A stretch of DNA of 47,235 nt, taken from positions 1 through 47,235 of the forward strand of contig JAAYOP010000053.1 in NCBI GenBank assembly GCA_012520295.1. Reading direction: 5' to 3'. A program made the translations under genes and the position numbers. The DNA is from Clostridiales bacterium. GTDB taxonomy: Bacteria > Bacillota > Clostridia > Oscillospirales > Oscillospiraceae. Every line of letters begins with the position of its first letter. Position 1 is the first letter of the stretch. The notes beneath the pieces were generated by a model. That model was not told where the DNA came from. It was given only the letters and a program-made list of their open reading frames with translations, and made no database searches. Below, piece after piece: positions 4,761-47,053 of the stretch.

Positions 4761-6500
4761 TTATGCGGTTTTTGCTATAAAGTCATCATATGCTTCCTGA
4801 TATATTGCCTGGCATTTGCCCAATCCGATTTCCGTCGCTCCCCTTACATAATCATCCCATTCGCTAAGAGGCTTTGAACCGTCTATAAAGGAAAGGAAGT
4901 TTTCATTAATGTATGTGATAACATCGGACTGGATCGCGTTGAGTTCCTCGCTCTGCTCATCGGTCAGCTTAAGGCTGGAAGGCCAATCATATTCACCGCT
5001 GTAGGTGGGATCTGCCCATGTAACCTTCATCATATTGAGGAACCTCTCGCCGCCATCATAAGCATAGCTTCTGACGTGCTGCTCTATCCCGCAGTCCACA
5101 AGGCTGTTCATGCCATGCATGACCATAACCCAGGCCGCACCAAGACCGTCAGGATTGCTTATGACGAAATCGGTAAGGCGGATTTCGCCGGCTTCATTAT
5201 AATCCCATGTATGGCCCTGCACACCATAGCTGGCAAAGAAGGAACCTTCTGGGCTGTAGAAATAATCGCAATAGGTTACAGCAAGGGGAACATTCTCGCA
5301 ATTTGCGCTGATATTCACGCTTCCGTAAGAGAAGTGCATTACCTTGCCGCCGATCTTGAGTATCTGGTCTTCGGTCTTTCTGACTTTTGGCAGCGCATCC
5401 CACCGCGCGTCCGGATCGGTCGATGCCGCTTCATAAGCAGCTATCTCGCCCGGGCTGAAAGGAACATATCCGGTTACGCCCGTCGTTATTTGCGGTGTAA
5501 GCACCTGAGTTGAAGTCGCTCCGGTCCAGGAGGGATCAATAAGCTTTTCATTATACCATTTTGCAAGCATCTCAACCGCTTCATAGTCCTCGGGCTGGGA
5601 CAGTGTAAAAGTCGGAGTTCCGTCAACAAGCTTTATGGTAGGAAGTGCTGAATCGGTTACCATCAATACCGTATCATAACCGGCTGAAATCATACCGCCC
5701 ATAAGCTCAATGGTGCTGAACATCTCCATCGGCCACTCAACATCAAGCTCATTCTTAAAACGGGTCAGCATCTCGTACACATCATCGTAGGTCTTGACAT
5801 TCATGGGGTCAATACCCAGCTTATCGAGCCAGTCTCCTCTGGCGCAGTAGTTCATACCCATCATGGGCTCTTCAATCATTGCGCTAAAGCCAAATATAGT
5901 CTCTTCATCATAGAAAATGGTATTGTATACGTCTATGTCATCAAAACGAACTGCCTGATACATATAGTTGGGCATATAGTCTTTATATTCATAGAGGTTT
6001 ACAAAATACTCATCCTCAATTGCACTTTTCGGAGAGCCGGGATAAAAATACATAGCCTGAGACACAAGGTCTGTCAGGTCATCGGAGTTAAGCATAACCG
6101 AAAAGTTTTCTCCCCTTGTTTCGGACGGAACAATTACATACTCAATATTCACGCCGGTTCTGTTTCTAAGCTCCGCCTGATATGGCATTTCGCCAAAGCC
6201 GTCTTCGGGTATAAACTGGGGAGTGAAGCAGGTAGTCCAATAGGTAAATATCTCATCCTCTACCGTGCTCAAAGGAAGGTTGTATGTATATGAGCCGGTG
6301 GGGAAGCCATTATCATCTACCTCGTAGTCTCCAATCGCAAAATTATAAGGCGAATCCGGATCTTGGGTTATAACCGGATTTTCATCGCCCGGTTTGTCGC
6401 TTGCTGTGGGGGTTTTTGTTTCCGTATTCCCGCTGCCGCAGGCGGCAAACAATGCTACAACAAGCAAAATTGCCAGGGTTAGTGCTAGTTTCTTCTTCAT
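4761..6500 (-). CDS. Lipoprotein solute-binding protein, carbohydrate ABC type (paralog 1)
   Basis: An extracellular lipid-anchored receptor of an ABC importer, probably for an oligosaccharide. 579 residues. The N-terminus is MKKKLALTLAILLVVALFAAC, a signal peptide ending in a lipobox with Cys21 as the lipidation site, then an acidic/Thr linker to about residue 50. The long mature domain (ARGDWLDKLGIDP, YDDVYEMLTRFKNE, WPSSLKLTDEQ) resembles large type-2 periplasmic-binding proteins of the LplA/YtcQ kind. No permease or ATPase gene lies nearby, so it must borrow a transporter from elsewhere or act in sensing. It is closely related to the next gene upstream, which shares most of its signal peptide and long blocks of sequence. 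Separate promoter at 6567-6595. Confidence 0.88.
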   Translation of the reverse strand: MKKKLALTLAILLVVALFAACGSGNTETKTPTASDKPGDENPVITQDPDSPYNFAIGDYEVDDNGFPTGSYTYNLPLSTVEDEIFTYWTTCFTPQFIPEDGFGEMPYQAELRNRTGVNIEYVIVPSETRGENFSVMLNSDDLTDLVSQAMYFYPGSPKSAIEDEYFVNLYEYKDYMPNYMYQAVRFDDIDVYNTIFYDEETIFGFSAMIEEPMMGMNYCARGDWLDKLGIDPMNVKTYDDVYEMLTRFKNELDVEWPMEMFSTIELMGGMISAGYDTVLMVTDSALPTIKLVDGTPTFTLSQPEDYEAVEMLAKWYNEKLIDPSWTGATSTQVLTPQITTGVTGYVPFSPGEIAAYEAASTDPDARWDALPKVRKTEDQILKIGGKVMHFSYGSVNISANCENVPLAVTYCDYFYSPEGSFFASYGVQGHTWDYNEAGEIRLTDFVISNPDGLGAAWVMVMHGMNSLVDCGIEQHVRSYAYDGGERFLNMMKVTWADPTYSGEYDWPSSLKLTDEQSEELNAIQSDVITYINENFLSFIDGSKPLSEWDDYVRGATEIGLGKCQAIYQEAYDDFIAKTA

Positions 6501-6825: not shown

Positions 6826-8586
6826 CTAAAAGTCTCCGTGCTTGGCGATAAAGGCATCGTATGCTTCCTGGAATATTGCCTGACAAGCATCAAGTCCGAT
6901 TGCTTTTGCCTCAGCCACATATGTATCCCACTCACTGAGAGGCTTGGAGCCATCAACAAATGAAAGGAAGTTTTCACCTATATATGTGACTACATCTGCC
7001 TGAACTTTATTGAGCTCTTCGCTTTGCTCATCAGTAAACTTGAGGCTGGTCGGCCAATCGTACTCGCCCGAGTAGTTCGGCTCTGCCCATGTAACCTTCA
7101 TCATATTGAGCAGTCTTTCTCCGCCGTCGTAAGCATAGTTTCTGGTGTGCCATTCAATACCAGGATCAACAAAGCTGTTGAGAGCGTTCATTATCATGAC
7201 CCAGGCTACTCCCAGACCGTCTGGATTTCTTAGAACAAAGTCTGTTAAGCGGATTTCGCCGTCTTCATTATAGTCCCAGGTGTGTCCCTGAACGCCATAG
7301 CTGGAGCTGAAGGAGCCCTCGGGGCTATAGAAATAATCGCAGTAGGTCACAAGGAGAGGAATGTTTTCGCATGTGGCGCTGATGCTGTTGCTTCCGTAAG
7401 AGAAGTGTCCGAGCTTGCTTCCCAGTTTAAATGCCTGGCCTTCGTACTTTCTCACTTTCTTCAGTGCCGCCCACTCAGCATCAGGATCGCTTGCTGCATC
7501 CTCAAAGCCCTTTATTTCTCCTGGGTTGAAGGCAACATAGCCTGTTTCTCCGTTTAATATCTGAGGAGTAATATCCTGGTTTGTTGAAACCGAGGTCCAC
7601 GCCGGATCAATGAGTCCTTCCTCCAGCCATGACTTGATAAGGACAAGTGCCTCATAGTCTTCCTGTTGGGTGAGTGTGAAGGTCGGCACGCCATCCACAA
7701 TTTTAATTGTCGGGAGGGCTTGGTCGCTGACAAACATGGCGGTATCATAACCTGCGAATATCATGGCTGCCGTCGGCTCGACAGTTTTAAATATCTCCAT
7801 CGGCCACTTTACATCCAGTTCATTTTTAAAGCGGGTGAGCATTTCATGAACATCGTCATAGGTTATAATATCATCGGGATCCATATCCAGTTTTCTTAGC
7901 CAGTCAGCTCTTGCACAATAGTTCATGCCCGGCATCGGCTCTTCAATCATTGTATAGAAAGCCAATATGGTTTCTTCATCATAGAATATAGTGTTGTAAA
8001 CATCTATATCATCAAAGCGTACTGCCTGATACATGTAGTTGGGCATGTAGTCCCTGTAATCAATGAGGTTTACAATATAGGCATCTTCTATTGCGCTCTT
8101 GGGCGGGCCTGACCAATAGAATCCGAAGCCGGATATCAAGTCACTGAGGTCGTCGGAGTTAATCATAACCGAGAAGTTCTCCATCATGGCCTGGCTGTTA
8201 ATAACCTGGTACTCGATATTAACTCCGGTTTTTTCCCTTGTATGCCTCTGATACGGCATTTCACCAAATCCCTCTTCAGGTATAAACTGAGGGGTATAAC
8301 AGGTCATCCAATATGTAAACACCTCATCCTCCACAGTACTGAGAGGAAGGGTATATTCGTATGAGCCTGTGGGAAAACCTCTTTCGTCTACTTCATAATT
8401 TCCAACGGCAAAATTATACGGAGAATCCGGTTTTTCGGTTTCATCCGGGATTTCATCGCCACCAATATCATCCCCGGTCTGTCCGGTCGGCGGAGCAGTT
8501 GTTGTGGTCTTACCGCCACCGCCGCAGGCTGCAAACAGGGTGACAATTAGCAGCATCGCGAGTATCAGAGCTAATTTCTTTTTCAT
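6826..8586 (-). CDS. Lipoprotein solute-binding protein, carbohydrate ABC type (paralog 2)
   Basis: 586 residues, with the same architecture as paralog 1: signal peptide with Cys21 in LFAACGGG, a Thr/Gly/Asp/Glu linker to about residue 55, then the large two-lobed binding domain. Blocks such as RFDDIDVYNTIFYDEETI and SSLVD/SFVD-GIE regions are shared with paralog 1. Differences cluster in the middle of the domain (about residues 150-175 and 320-400), as expected for changed ligand specificity after a tandem duplication. The last residues differ (KHGDF). It has its own promoter at 8706-8734, and two copies of a 21-bp repeat lie in its leader. No transporter permease is adjacent. Confidence 0.88.
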   Translation of the reverse strand: MKKKLALILAMLLIVTLFAACGGGGKTTTTAPPTGQTGDDIGGDEIPDETEKPDSPYNFAVGNYEVDERGFPTGSYEYTLPLSTVEDEVFTYWMTCYTPQFIPEEGFGEMPYQRHTREKTGVNIEYQVINSQAMMENFSVMINSDDLSDLISGFGFYWSGPPKSAIEDAYIVNLIDYRDYMPNYMYQAVRFDDIDVYNTIFYDEETILAFYTMIEEPMPGMNYCARADWLRKLDMDPDDIITYDDVHEMLTRFKNELDVKWPMEIFKTVEPTAAMIFAGYDTAMFVSDQALPTIKIVDGVPTFTLTQQEDYEALVLIKSWLEEGLIDPAWTSVSTNQDITPQILNGETGYVAFNPGEIKGFEDAASDPDAEWAALKKVRKYEGQAFKLGSKLGHFSYGSNSISATCENIPLLVTYCDYFYSPEGSFSSSYGVQGHTWDYNEDGEIRLTDFVLRNPDGLGVAWVMIMNALNSFVDPGIEWHTRNYAYDGGERLLNMMKVTWAEPNYSGEYDWPTSLKFTDEQSEELNKVQADVVTYIGENFLSFVDGSKPLSEWDTYVAEAKAIGLDACQAIFQEAYDAFIAKHGDF

Positions 8587-8646
8587 TTTTTTCTCCTTTC
8601 TTTTGAATAGTAGTGCTCGTGTTTGTGCTCAATGCACTGAAAAAAT

Positions 8647-8695
8647 AGCTTACTGCAGTAGTTTTATAAAAAACAGCTTACTGCAGTAGTTTTAT
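8647..8695. repeat. Two direct 21-bp repeats with TACTGCAGTA palindromes in leader of paralog 2
   Basis: AGCTTACTGCAGTAGTTTTAT occurs twice without mismatch, at 8647-8667 and 8675-8695, 28 bp apart. Each holds the palindrome TACTGCAGTA. Both lie just downstream of the inferred transcription start (about 8699), which suits operators or small RNA hairpins. No cognate regulator is adjacent. Confidence 0.6.
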
Positions 8696-13447: not shown

Positions 13448-13494
13448 TAATACCTGCTGAACAATTCAAAAACGCATTTATTCGGTGGACATTA
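13448..13494 (+). mobile_element. Internally deleted copy (47 bp) of the TA-bounded palindromic repeat
   Basis: Only the two ends of the element remain. The left end is TAATACCTGCTGAACAATTC, running on through AAAAACGC. It is joined directly to the right end ATTTATTCGGTGGACATTA. Both ends match those of the 183-bp copy at 32157-32339. It sits in the spacer between the M23 terminator and noc. Confidence 0.65.
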
Positions 13495-31988: not shown

Positions 31989-32000
31989 TTAGGTACCGAA
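31989..32000. promoter_or_regulatory. Second operator half-match of MarR (TTAGGTACCGAA)
   Basis: An imperfect copy of the 12-bp palindrome, located between transcription start and ribosome site. Its centre is 31 bp (three helical turns) from the perfect copy. Confidence 0.6.
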
Positions 32001-32012
32001 CTATTTGACTGT

Positions 32013-32041
32013 ATTATACTTAGGTACCTAATAAATGTCAA
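32013..32041 (-). promoter_or_regulatory. Consensus promoter of the marR-ABC operon with operator in the spacer
   Basis: Minus-strand TTGACA, exactly 17 bp, TATAAT. The spacer contains the perfect palindrome TTAGGTACCTAA (32020-32031). A repressor bound there would cover both hexamers. Confidence 0.85.
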
Positions 32042-32156
32042 GGGTTTTTTTGAGAATTTTTCACAAAAATATGGCGTGTTGGTTTTTTCTATACCAACAC
32101 GCTTCTTCCGACACAGACTTTTTAAGCCGTCAAACCGCATAAAATGCGGTTTAATT
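32042..32156. other. Two hairpins between the ABC blocks
   Basis: GCGTGTTGGT pairs with ACCAACACGC (32074-32102), and AAACCGCAT pairs with ATGCGGTTT (32132-32152). They lie downstream of the heterodimeric ABC operon and its repeat element and may end its transcript ahead of the marR promoter, although T-runs on the minus strand are weak. Confidence 0.5.
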
Positions 32157-32339
32157 TAATGACTGCTGAACAATTCAAAAACGCAATAATAGCAATCCTT
32201 TGACAGCGTTTTTGAATTGTTCAGGTAGTCAATCAATGTATCTGAAGCGGGCAAAAAGGTTTGTTTTGCCCGTCAAAAAGAGCAATTTTGCTCTTTTTGC
32301 AAATGCGTTTCGCAAAACGCATTTGTTCAGTGGGCATTA
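32157..32339 (+). mobile_element. 183-bp TA-bounded palindromic repeat (full copy, MITE-like)
   Basis: The ends are imperfect inverted repeats: TAATGACTGCTGAACAATTC on the left, and TAATGCCCACTGAACAAATG read inward from the right. The inside is almost all palindrome: 25-base arms at 32160-32184 and 32206-32231, CGGGCAAAA/TTTTGCCCG (32248-32272), a 24-bp palindrome at 32275-32298 and AAATGCGTTT/AAACGCATTT (32301-32324). There is no coding capacity. TA at both edges suggests the target duplication of IS630/mariner-type transposases. It starts 8 bp after the ABC gene stop. Confidence 0.7.
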
Positions 32340-32346
32340 ATCCATC

Positions 32347-34128
32347 TCAGAGCTCCATAAGCTGAGAAGTATACATGCGGAAGTAATCACCCTTTTTCTC
32401 CATCAGTTCCTCATGGGTTCCACATTCCGTAATGCCACCGTTCTTAATAAACATTATGCAGTCACAGTTTCTTATTGTAGACAGCCTGTGGGCAATTATA
32501 AAGCTTGTGCGACCGGCAAGGAGATGGTTTATGCCCTTCTGCACATAAAGCTCCGTTTTCGTATCTATTGAGGAGGTTGCCTCATCCAGTATGAGAATCT
32601 TCGGGTCAGATATAATTGTCCGCGCAAAAGCCAGTAGCTGTTTCTGCCCCTGGGACAGGCGACCTCCCCGCTCCTTGATCTCCCTGTCATAGCGCTCCGG
32701 GAATTTGTCAATAAACTCGTTTAAATGCACTACTGCGCTGGCGGCTTCCATCTCCTCCAGGGTTGCGTCCAGCCGCCCATATCGGATATTCTCGGCAATT
32801 GTTCCGGAAAATATAAAGCTGTCCTGCAGCATTATGCCCATTTGCCTGCGCAGCGAGTCCAGGGTTACTTTTGAAATATCATGCCCGTCTATGAGGATAC
32901 GCCCGTCCTTGAGATCATAAAAACGTGAAAGCAGATTCACAATTGTGGTTTTTCCCGCTCCCGTCGGACCCACAAGGGCCACGCTCATGCCTGGCTCTAC
33001 TTTAAAACTCAGGTTTTCAAGCACATTCTCGCCTTCTGTGTAGCCAAAGGTTACATTCTCGAAAACTACCTGTCCGTTTATCCCGGGCAACTCATAGGCA
33101 TCCGGAGCGTCCTCTATCATGACAGGCTCGTCCATGGTTTCAAAAATGCGTTCCAGATAGGCTATTGTATTTAGAAACTGGTTGTATATCTGTGACAGTC
33201 TGTTTATAGGCTGCCAGAAACGCCATGAGTAGTTGCCCATAGCAAAAATCACACCGAGGCTTACCATGGGGTAGCTCCACAGCACGCCGACAAGATAGAG
33301 AAAACTGAAAATTATCTGCGAAATATTGTCAACGGTGGGCTGTACAAGGTTTGATATAAGCCCCGCCTTGAAATGGGCCGAGCGGTATTCCCGGGCGAGC
33401 CTATCAAATATCTCTGCGTTCTTGTTCTCACGGGTAAAAATCTGGGTAATCCTCATACCGTTGATGCTTTCCGCCGCGTATGCGTTTAAATTTGAGTTTT
33501 TATTGCTGACGCGCTGCCATGCCCTGCGCTGGGCAGGCTTAATCGTAAACAGTACAAAGAACAAAATCGGAAGCCCTGCAAGTACCACAAGGGTTAGCTT
33601 CACATTGGTTATGAGCATAAACACAATAATAAAAATCAGGTTTACTATCTCAAGTATAAAGTCTATTATACCGTTTGAGAGCATGTTGGCTACCGAATTT
33701 ACATACTGCACAACGCGCACCAGAATTTTCCCGTGAGGCCTGTCGTCATAATATGTGAAGGGAAGCTTCTGCATATGGGTAAACAGATCGTTGCGTATCT
33801 CAAAAATAATATCCTGTCCTACCTCGGTGAGCGTCCTGGCGCGAAGTCGGGACAGCAGTATGGTGGTGATAATCAGTATTGCCGCCAGACCTGCAAGAAG
33901 GACCAGCTCCCCGATGTCCTTATTCGGAACACTCACATCCAGAGCCCTCTGTACAAGCTGGGGTACACACAGGGCCAGAATGCTTGCCACGGCGGAGGCC
34001 ACAAATGCCTTGGTCATTTTCTTTATATGCTTGCGTATGTATATGAAACTGCGCCGCAGGTGCTTGAAACTGAATGGGCTGTGCAGCGTTTCATCAATAT
34101 CATATCTGTTTCTCTGGGGAGTAGCCAT
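32347..34128 (-). CDS. ABC exporter subunit, catalytic half of a heterodimer
   Basis: 593 residues with six membrane segments to about residue 335, then an ATPase domain: Walker A GPTGAGKTT, signature LSQGQKQ, Walker B ILILDEATSS with catalytic Glu and H-loop IAHRLST. The signature LSQGQ deviates from LSGGQ, as usual in the partner of a degenerate subunit. It is encoded directly after and overlapping the second subunit by one base. Pairs of this design (BmrCD/YheIH, LmrCD, TmrAB types) export drugs or peptides. Its consensus Walker A/B pairs with the partner's LSGGQ to give the one active ATP site. Confidence 0.92.
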   Translation of the reverse strand: MATPQRNRYDIDETLHSPFSFKHLRRSFIYIRKHIKKMTKAFVASAVASILALCVPQLVQRALDVSVPNKDIGELVLLAGLAAILIITTILLSRLRARTLTEVGQDIIFEIRNDLFTHMQKLPFTYYDDRPHGKILVRVVQYVNSVANMLSNGIIDFILEIVNLIFIIVFMLITNVKLTLVVLAGLPILFFVLFTIKPAQRRAWQRVSNKNSNLNAYAAESINGMRITQIFTRENKNAEIFDRLAREYRSAHFKAGLISNLVQPTVDNISQIIFSFLYLVGVLWSYPMVSLGVIFAMGNYSWRFWQPINRLSQIYNQFLNTIAYLERIFETMDEPVMIEDAPDAYELPGINGQVVFENVTFGYTEGENVLENLSFKVEPGMSVALVGPTGAGKTTIVNLLSRFYDLKDGRILIDGHDISKVTLDSLRRQMGIMLQDSFIFSGTIAENIRYGRLDATLEEMEAASAVVHLNEFIDKFPERYDREIKERGGRLSQGQKQLLAFARTIISDPKILILDEATSSIDTKTELYVQKGINHLLAGRTSFIIAHRLSTIRNCDCIMFIKNGGITECGTHEELMEKKGDYFRMYTSQLMEL

Positions 34129-41365: not shown

Positions 41366-41968
41366 GTATTTTCTCCTTTCCTCAGTGGCAAAAAAGACGC
41401 CCTTATTATATTTTTATGACCGGATTATTGCCTGCCAATCGCGCTTTTGCTTTTTATATAATAATTTATAATAATCTGTTAAGCTGTGTTAACTTGTCGA
41501 AATAAACTAAATTAGTTAATGTAATGCAGGGGCAACTCTTTTGGGCCTATTGTAAATGATTGACGTGACAACAATGCCTTTTGTTCCCTGTAACTGTTTT
41601 TTTGTGCAGCTTTTTACTCTGATGCCGTTGTCATTATCCTCCGCCCGTCCACACCTATAAATTTAACAACTTCTTAATACTAAATAATGTCCACCGAACA
41701 AATGCTTTCGCATTATACATTTGATTGACCGCCTGAAATACTTTTTGTCCGTAAATGGAAAGTGCGAATACATAAGGAATAAAATACCCTTTTATTGCTC
41801 AATAATGACCGTACATATAAAAAACCAGCATTTCAAGCAACATGTCACCTTCATAGATTTCAATCTTATTACGTGCCATTGAGCCCGGGTCCTGTACATT
41901 TTAGCATAAAAAGATGTTTTATGTATAATTTGGTGTAATATAATATTTTAAAATCAGGAGAAAATGCA
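41366..41968. other. 600-bp AT-rich intergenic region with a degenerate repeat copy
   Basis: Divergent spacer between the MutS-like pair and the NIF3 gene. It holds a shortened copy of the palindromic repeat (41684-41737) and otherwise no gene that I can support. A TATAAT-like box is present at about 41919-41930 before the NIF3 gene. A 26-codon minus-strand frame (41799-41879) is noted separately and not accepted. Confidence 0.5.
41684..41737 (-). mobile_element. Degenerate, internally deleted copy of the TA-bounded repeat
   Basis: It begins TAATGTCCACCGAACAAATG like the other copies, keeps a shortened TTTCGCATT palindrome, and ends GATTGACCGCCTGAA as in the copies at 42904 and 32157 (inverse orientation to the latter). 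The central palindromes are missing. Confidence 0.55.
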
Positions 41969-42903: not shown

Positions 42904-43025
42904 TAATGTCCACTGAACAAATGCGTTTTGCGAAACGCATTTACAAAAAGAGCAAATTTACTCTTTTGACAGGCAAATTAAACCTGTTTTTTCCGTTTAA
43001 GAGGAGTTGATTGACTGCCTGATGC
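42904..43025 (-). mobile_element. Truncated copy (about 120 bp) of the TA-bounded palindromic repeat
   Basis: Reads TAATGTCCACTGAACAAATG, then the GCGTTTTGCGAAACGC palindrome, AAAAAGAGCAAATTTACTCTTTT, a degraded GGCAAATTAAACCTG stem and GATTGACTGCCTGA. This is collinear with the reverse complement of 32218-32339 over its whole length. The other terminal hairpin is missing. Confidence 0.68.
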
Positions 43026-46927: not shown

Positions 46928-46977
46928 GCAAAGAGGACCGGAAATCACTTTTTATCGTGATTTCCGGTCCTCTTTGC
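46928..46977. terminator. Long stem-loop after tRNA-Val
   Basis: A 20-base-pair perfect stem (AAAGAGGACCGG... arm) directly after the tRNA 3' end on the minus strand. The T-run is limited to TTT at the stem end. Confidence 0.7.
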
Positions 46978-47053
46978 TGGTGGACGATAACGGACTTGAA
47001 CCGCTGACCCTCCGCACGTCAAGCGGATGCTCTACCAGCTGAGCTAATCGTCC
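46978..47053 (-). tRNA. tRNA-Val (anticodon GAC)
   Basis: All four stems are visible: acceptor GGACGAT/ATCGTCC, D stem GCTC/GAGC, anticodon stem TCCGC/GCGGA around the loop TTGACGT, and T stem AGCGG/CCGTT around TTCAAGT. The CCA end is encoded. Anticodon GAC reads GUC/GUU valine codons. It is a lone tRNA with its own promoter. Confidence 0.96.

Follow-up and report, generated by a model that had tools for sequence, protein, structure and literature searches.

A family of short, non-coding, palindrome-filled repeats in a member of the Oscillospiraceae is, with a probability of about 0.87, a MITE family of the IS5-family subgroup modelled by NCBIfam NF033578; this reading rests on IS5-family elements elsewhere that have the same ends and the same 6–7 bp TAN2/3TA target-site duplications. 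We noticed the family in the window, the whole stretch of 47,235 nucleotides that was analyzed, which is contig C127 of a genome of 2.57 Mb (G000; 157 contigs, 96% complete), and compared it with a single congener genome (G001). The first-pass annotation had proposed a MITE, and the evidence below agrees in so far as the repeats are non-coding MITEs, have inverted ends and are most likely moved by an IS transposase acting in trans. The type of transposase is where our result departs from that proposal.

Four copies with common ends had been reported in the window. All four were found at the places given, but both ends are shared by only two of them: the truncated copies at 41685-41737 and 42904-43022 retain only the TAATGTCCAC.. 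end. A shared TAATGNC left end had also been claimed; the copy at 13448 instead reads TAATACC. The features of the four copies are as follows.

32157-32339, plus strand: element copy with both ends; the element proper, ATG...CAT, is 32159-32337
32152-32158, no strand: left copy of a putative 7-bp target duplication, TAATTTA, decayed, identical to the right copy at 5 of 7 positions; the family pattern is TANNNTA
32338-32344, no strand: right copy of the putative 7-bp target duplication, TAATCCA
32157-32173: left terminal inverted repeat of the 183-bp copy
32166-32224, plus strand: arm 1, hairpin F (CTGAACAATTCAAAAACGC ... GCGTTTTTGAATTGTTCAG), from the fold and comparison with full-length copies
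32225-32246, plus strand: linker including the closing strand of arm 2 (GTAGTCAATCAATGTATCTGAA)
32247-32273, plus strand: arm 2, hairpin A, from sequence and fold
32274-32299, plus strand: arm 2, hairpin B, from sequence and fold
32300-32325, plus strand: arm 2, hairpin C, from sequence and fold
32323-32339, minus strand: right terminal inverted repeat, TAATGCCCACTGAACAA as read on the minus strand
13448-13494, plus strand: 47-bp internally deleted copy, hardly more than both ends
42904-43022, minus strand: copy with the right end and arm 2, without the left end
41685-41737, minus strand: copy with the right end, a shortened hairpin C and a linker remnant, without hairpins A and B and the left end

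Compared with full-length copies, the copy at 32157-32339 lacks hairpins E and D. Folding bore out the stacked hairpins described for this copy, but the 47-bp copy at 13448 is too short for them. As single-stranded DNA, the 32157 copy folded with -58.3 kcal/mol (z = -10.9, 200 shuffles); as RNA, the truncated 42904 copy gave a weaker z of -2.5. The collinearity seen earlier between these two copies was recovered over 119 nt, with 32221-32339 and the reverse complement of 42904-43022 scored as 79% complementary. With up to three mismatches, the end pattern occurs 18 times within the window, against a shuffle mean of 8.8. A terminator role was considered for the 32157 copy and rejected, as a simple scan found no terminator-like site in 32000-32500. 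Elsewhere in the window, 4761-6500 and 6826-8586 form a tandem related gene pair (about 71% identical DNA over 1.78 kb), a 28-nt unit occurs twice head-to-tail (8640-8695, 96% alike) upstream of the minus-strand gene 6826-8586, and a perfect 21-bp inverted repeat with an 8-bp loop (46928-46977) adjoins a tRNA at 46981-47053.

When the end pattern TAATGNCNNCTGAACAA was searched genome-wide with at most one mismatch, 161 matches were found in G000 (88 forward and 73 reverse) and 78 in G001, while the reversed pattern used as a control matched once in each genome. A genome-wide search with the 183-bp copy, in which 40 of 192 candidates were scored, gave at least 68 matches in the window's own genome. 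We then catalogued elements by pairing left and right ends in 100 stretches around listed sites. The catalogue holds 98 rows (72 in G000 and 26 in G001) of 40-287 bp and is a lower bound, since 100 of the 161 end matches in G000 and 50 of the 78 in G001 were listed and a subset was fetched. Seven rows, all in G000, were dropped before duplications were counted because their left 'end' was the internal linker (CAATG or AAATG); the remaining 91 copies have both outer ends (65 in G000 and 26 in G001) and include L075:3583-3689, which probably also begins in the linker. The terminal inverted repeats of the family are ATGYCYRCTGAACAA / TTGTTCAGYRGRCAT. The lack of coding capacity reported earlier was confirmed, with a single row of the 98 inside an ORF of at least 100 aa. 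At the short extreme are copies of 40-47 bp that are hardly more than two ends (five in each genome). Some short copies start TAATGYATCTGAA and contain arm 2 alone, and two of these arm-2-only copies have exact duplications (L084, TATATTA; L123, TATTTA). Viral contigs gave no exact match to TTTCAGATRCATTGATTGACT. At L111:2009-2289 and around 1501-1680 of L165 (both G001), the right end contains the terminal repeat once more, as a nested copy. At L098:1845-2017 and L115:1906-2153, elements lie at the same gene end in both congeners in opposite orientations, which suggests independent insertions close together.

The full-length form is about 256-260 bp in G001 (L116, L118 and L122); L041 of Papillibacter cinnamivorans and L040 of a Bacillota MAG have it as well. 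Its order is TAATGCCTG - hairpins F, E, D - CAGGC - AGTCAATCA - TGCATCTGAA - hairpins A, B, C - TTCAGTGGACATTA, that is, two three-hairpin clusters, GCCTG[F][E][D]CAGGC and TGYATCTGAA[A][B][C]TTCAGTGGACA. Folding L033, or the alignment, gave a short stem that closes each cluster; when the minus strand of L040 was folded as DNA only the first cluster was closed, and when its plus strand was folded as RNA the outer ends paired instead. By a simple alignment criterion, all six hairpins are kept in none of the 72 rows of G000 and in 4 of the 26 rows of G001, and many combinations occur.

A covariance model of arm 2 (R2) was searched in 150 genomes of the GTDB family, and the repeat family was found in four of them, from three genera: G000, G001, G032 (Papillibacter) and G096. 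The MAG of L040 (G150) is a further element-bearing genome, with 15 end matches compared to 3 in the control. The G096 copies (L145, L181 and L184) have the same ends and the same three-plus-three hairpin order, but most of their stems differ in sequence; what is conserved is the outer CTGAACAA, GTGCAAGG in hairpin E and some of the linker. The fold of L184 reached -168.9 kcal/mol (z = -22.35). Between genera, it is the shape of the interior that is kept, rather than its sequence. In alignment A2, which consists of six related full-length copies from genomes other than G096, 23 of 91 pairs were changed on both sides, whereas shuffles gave 6.1 ± 2.0 and slid partners at most 5. These two-sided changes support, but do not prove, a conserved structure.

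Among hairpins with at least 80% of pairs covered and at least 75% identity, 362 of the 2861 stem pairs in G000 and G001 are no longer Watson-Crick, so individual copies mostly decay, and the conservation between genera would reflect the active lineage. In the same genomes 44 pairs were changed on both sides, of which 32 are still Watson-Crick, versus approximately 5.6 under independence. It is a real possibility, if somewhat short of even odds, that the hairpins have no function, template switching at palindromes both creating them and keeping them perfect, and that only the ends are selected for mobility; such an interior is compatible with the IS5 MITE explanation. The excess of decayed pairs (362) over two-sided kept changes (32) fits this reading, as do copies of 40-47 bp with exact duplications (L132, TATTTA; L115, TATATA; L051, CAATTA), which have evidently little but ends, although deletion after insertion would give the same trace. 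On the other hand, two sets of three hairpins recur in the same order in at least three genera, with largely different stems in G096, and the kept two-sided changes exceed independence even within genomes, though the copies share descent.

It is improbable that what has spread is at heart a non-coding structured RNA, or a regulatory repeat like BOX, with hairpins that act in transcripts and mobility as a secondary trait. Such a role would account for a fold conserved with compensatory changes across genera and for the extreme fold in G096 (z = -22.35). However, altered stem pairs were G-T in 113 cases and A-C in 88, which is not significantly unequal (p = 0.09), and thus neither strand clearly shows RNA-type tolerance of G-U. 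The genomic context also gave no clear bias by a crude ORF caller: the 84 copies with both neighbours (14 of the 98 rows lie at stretch edges and were excluded) occupy 45 tandem, 22 convergent and 17 divergent gaps, compared to 173, 57 and 52 in the background. No Rfam family reached its gathering score on the elements; with Rfam 15, only a tRNA scored over the gathering score in the window, and the five matches in L032, L033, L039 and L040 were all below theirs. The existence of end-only copies of 40-47 bp argues against this reading as well.

Target-site duplications were scored in the 91 elements by comparing the bases before ATG with the bases after CAT. Exact direct repeats of 6 bp were found in 27 copies and of 7 bp in 7 copies, while random pairing of flanks gave 5.63 and 0.5, respectively. 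Copies well beyond the four in the window are present, their boundaries are constant, and 34 of the 91 have exact duplications, of which 31 have the form TANNTA or TANNNTA. In the three exact exceptions (TAATTC, CAATTA and TAATAA) the odd bases are present on both sides, which indicates that TA is part of the target and not of the element. Among the 57 copies without an exact 6-7 bp duplication, 13 have no matching TA on both sides; the 57 may in part hold decayed duplications, fitting old copies, and could also mask another mechanism. MITE copies in other genomes are flanked by similar repeats (L181, TATTATA; L192, TAAATA; L189, TAATTA; L185, TAAATA). We aligned six G000/G001 locus pairs for empty sites, but with one congener only, the intergenic DNA was too diverged.

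The TA edges seen by the first-pass annotation are thus present but belong to longer duplications of 6-7 bp, mostly TA-N2/3-TA. This bears directly on its proposal that an IS630/mariner-type transposase mobilises the repeat by insertion at TA with duplication of TA, for which TA at both edges in 78 of the 91 copies (exact repeats of at least 2 bp) would speak. We now consider that proposal very improbable, because the duplications reach 6-7 bp, PF13358 gave no match in G000, G032, G096 and G150 (a single fragment below the cut-off occurs in G001), and the elements with matching ends belong to the IS5 family. As candidate partners, the PF01609 (DDE_Tnp_1) loci L170-L176 and the PF13358 fragment L169 were rejected; they have no end with 0-1 mismatch, and their end matches with 2-3 mismatches are what chance predicts.

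The link to IS5 came from L178 in G096, where a single end runs into the C-terminus of a transposase, with the stop codon placed within the terminal repeat. Its 108-aa fragment matched the IS5-family model NF033578 with an E value of 6e-13 (48.6 bits, below the cut-off for full-length proteins). We searched this fragment in 150 genomes of the family (9 with matches) and 394 genomes of the order (8 with matches), and a 407-aa relative, L213, in 391 genomes of the class (4 with matches) and 72,556 plasmid records (66 with matches). Three elements with ATG-type ends, as in the repeat family, were recovered. L217 is 1571 bp long with ends ATGCCTACTGAGCAAA / ATGTCTACTGAACAAA, TATATA on both sides and a transposase with an open frame of 521 aa (483 aa from the first ATG). 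L215 (1532 bp, ATGTCATCTTAACAA / ATGTCTACTGAACAA) has a broken gene and also TATATA on both sides, found by hand. L223, on the Enterococcus lactis plasmid pY3-3, is 1590 bp long with ends ATGTCTACTGAATAA / ATGTCTGCTGAATAA, TATTTA on both sides and an annotated IS5 transposase. In L178 (G096 also bears the MITE), L202, L213 and L218, only the right end was found, at the 3' end of the transposase frame. L213 scored 323 bits against NF033578 (cut-off 275) and 80.2 bits against PF13586 (cut-off 29.2); it also matches ISNCY_1 (118.4 bits, cut-off 325) and IS1182 (36.2 bits), so that the exact place assigned to the group within IS5 is tentative. Distant relatives with GGG- or GTC-type ends between TAN2/3TA were found at L221, L224, L225 (annotated ISAcma17), L226 (annotated ISMae6) and L227 (7-bp repeat TAACATA). 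An automated end finder, which chooses the best among many candidates for each end, listed an exact repeat of 6-7 bp for 7 of 15 loci (L217, L221 and L223-L227) and gave no clean repeat at L203, L214, L216, L218, L219, L220 and L222; three of these seven (L203, L216 and L218) are truncated by the end of a contig.

When four MITE sequences were compared with eight IS loci, clear similarity was confined to the ends (about 18-20 bp), reaching perhaps about 30 bp between the right end of L040 and L215 and L218 (84-85%, E 0.28-1.1). The MITE is therefore no plain internal deletion of the ISs compared. A full IS with the same ends, which the first-pass annotation had proposed to look for, was found in other bacteria (L217, L215 and L223), but none was found in the window's own genome. 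An IS5_1-type transposase with such ends was not found in G000, G001, G032 or G150. Fragments of the NF033578 type scored 23.5 bits in G000 and 24.7 bits in G001 (cut-off 275), and neither fragment locus matches the transposase of L213, L217 or L223 (tblastn, 1e-3). Among element-bearing genomes, the partner transposase was found in G096 only, as a copy cut by a contig end. The fetched stretches held no near-identical IS pair; pairs over 300 bp were of 66-75% identity only, three in G000 (the window's gene pair, L099/L102, and L102 with itself), two in G001 and the rest between genomes. A weak remnant of an IS5_1-type transposase lies near a truncated element copy at L117:857-1108 (G001:C72:5256-5507), and tblastn at 1e-3 gave no match between this remnant and the transposases of L213, L217 and L223. 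Finally, movement as REP/BIME-type palindromes by a RAYT/IS200-type HUH transposase, which palindromes in many intergenic copies might recall, is hardly credible given that the matching ends belong to a DDE element and that exact 6-7 bp target duplications are present, which to our knowledge are not expected of HUH transposases.

We therefore return to the MITE of the NF033578 subgroup. A DDE transposase of this group, supplied in trans, would act on the ends of about 17 bp and place the element into TANNTA or TANNNTA targets, cut with a stagger of 6-7 bp. Since no transposase gene was found in the window's genome, the partner may be lost, unassembled or elsewhere, and the copies may be stranded. 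The range of forms from 40 to 287 bp would result where single hairpins, or the entire interior, were lost. Because shape and not sequence is kept between genera, the hairpins may matter at the DNA level, where each end might fold as a cruciform or as a single strand, for example to aid cruciform formation, transposase access or single-strand survival. Equally, they may be no more than the product of template switching during the repair of palindromes. A bolder version, which we hold only tentatively and consider rather unlikely, is that the mobile element uses its two three-hairpin clusters as a functional nucleic-acid device encoded by shape. On single-stranded DNA the clusters would extrude, one for each end, to form a pair of cruciform or four-way junctions, and these junctions might license or time IS5-type transposition or recruit a host factor. 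If true, this would be a class of MITE that needs interior structure besides its ends, conserved between genera.

The family was also set beside known systems. RUP, Correia, ERIC and Nezha-type MITEs are likewise short and palindromic with TA edges, but they duplicate TA only, whereas the family duplicates 6-7 bp. ISs of the NF033578 (transpos_IS5_1) group and their relatives (ISMae6 and ISAcma17) share with it the inverted ends and the 6-7 bp TAN2/3TA duplications; they differ in being about 1.5-1.7 kb long, in carrying a transposase gene and in an interior that is unrelated where compared, and, unlike the repeat family, no hairpin array was noted in them. BrickBuilt of Porphyromonas gingivalis, as described in the accessible part of PMC4596501, is a non-coding, IS5-related MITE that resembles the family in its ends matching those of IS5-family ISs and in its modular interior, but it has 23-nt repeats in place of hairpin clusters, GAGACC.. 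ends and duplications of 2-5 bp. BOX of Streptococcus pneumoniae, according to the part of PMC3049150 that was available, is also a modular composite with TIRs, target duplications, variably present modules and a fold predicted when transcribed; it differs in its boxA/boxB/boxC structure with a variable tandem boxB array, and the likeness is one of description. Thus, going by those parts of these sources, MITEs with IS5-type ends (e.g., BrickBuilt, PMC4596501) and modular hairpin-forming repeats (BOX, PMC3049150) are already known. What sets the repeat family apart is the conserved two-times-three hairpin plan. Searches of the open-licence literature (including PMC10969869, PMC4596501, PMC8147514 and PMC3049150) turned up no prior description of the repeat family, so neither these papers nor Rfam contradict the earlier view that it was undescribed.

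These results tie a dispersed palindrome family in Papillibacter relatives (Oscillospiraceae, NCBI taxonomy) to a definite transposase group and document 6-7 bp TAN2/3TA duplications at several members of that subgroup of IS5. Since its shape is kept while its sequence turns over, the family offers a natural test of whether selection maintains the hairpins inside bacterial MITEs or palindrome repair produces them as a side effect.
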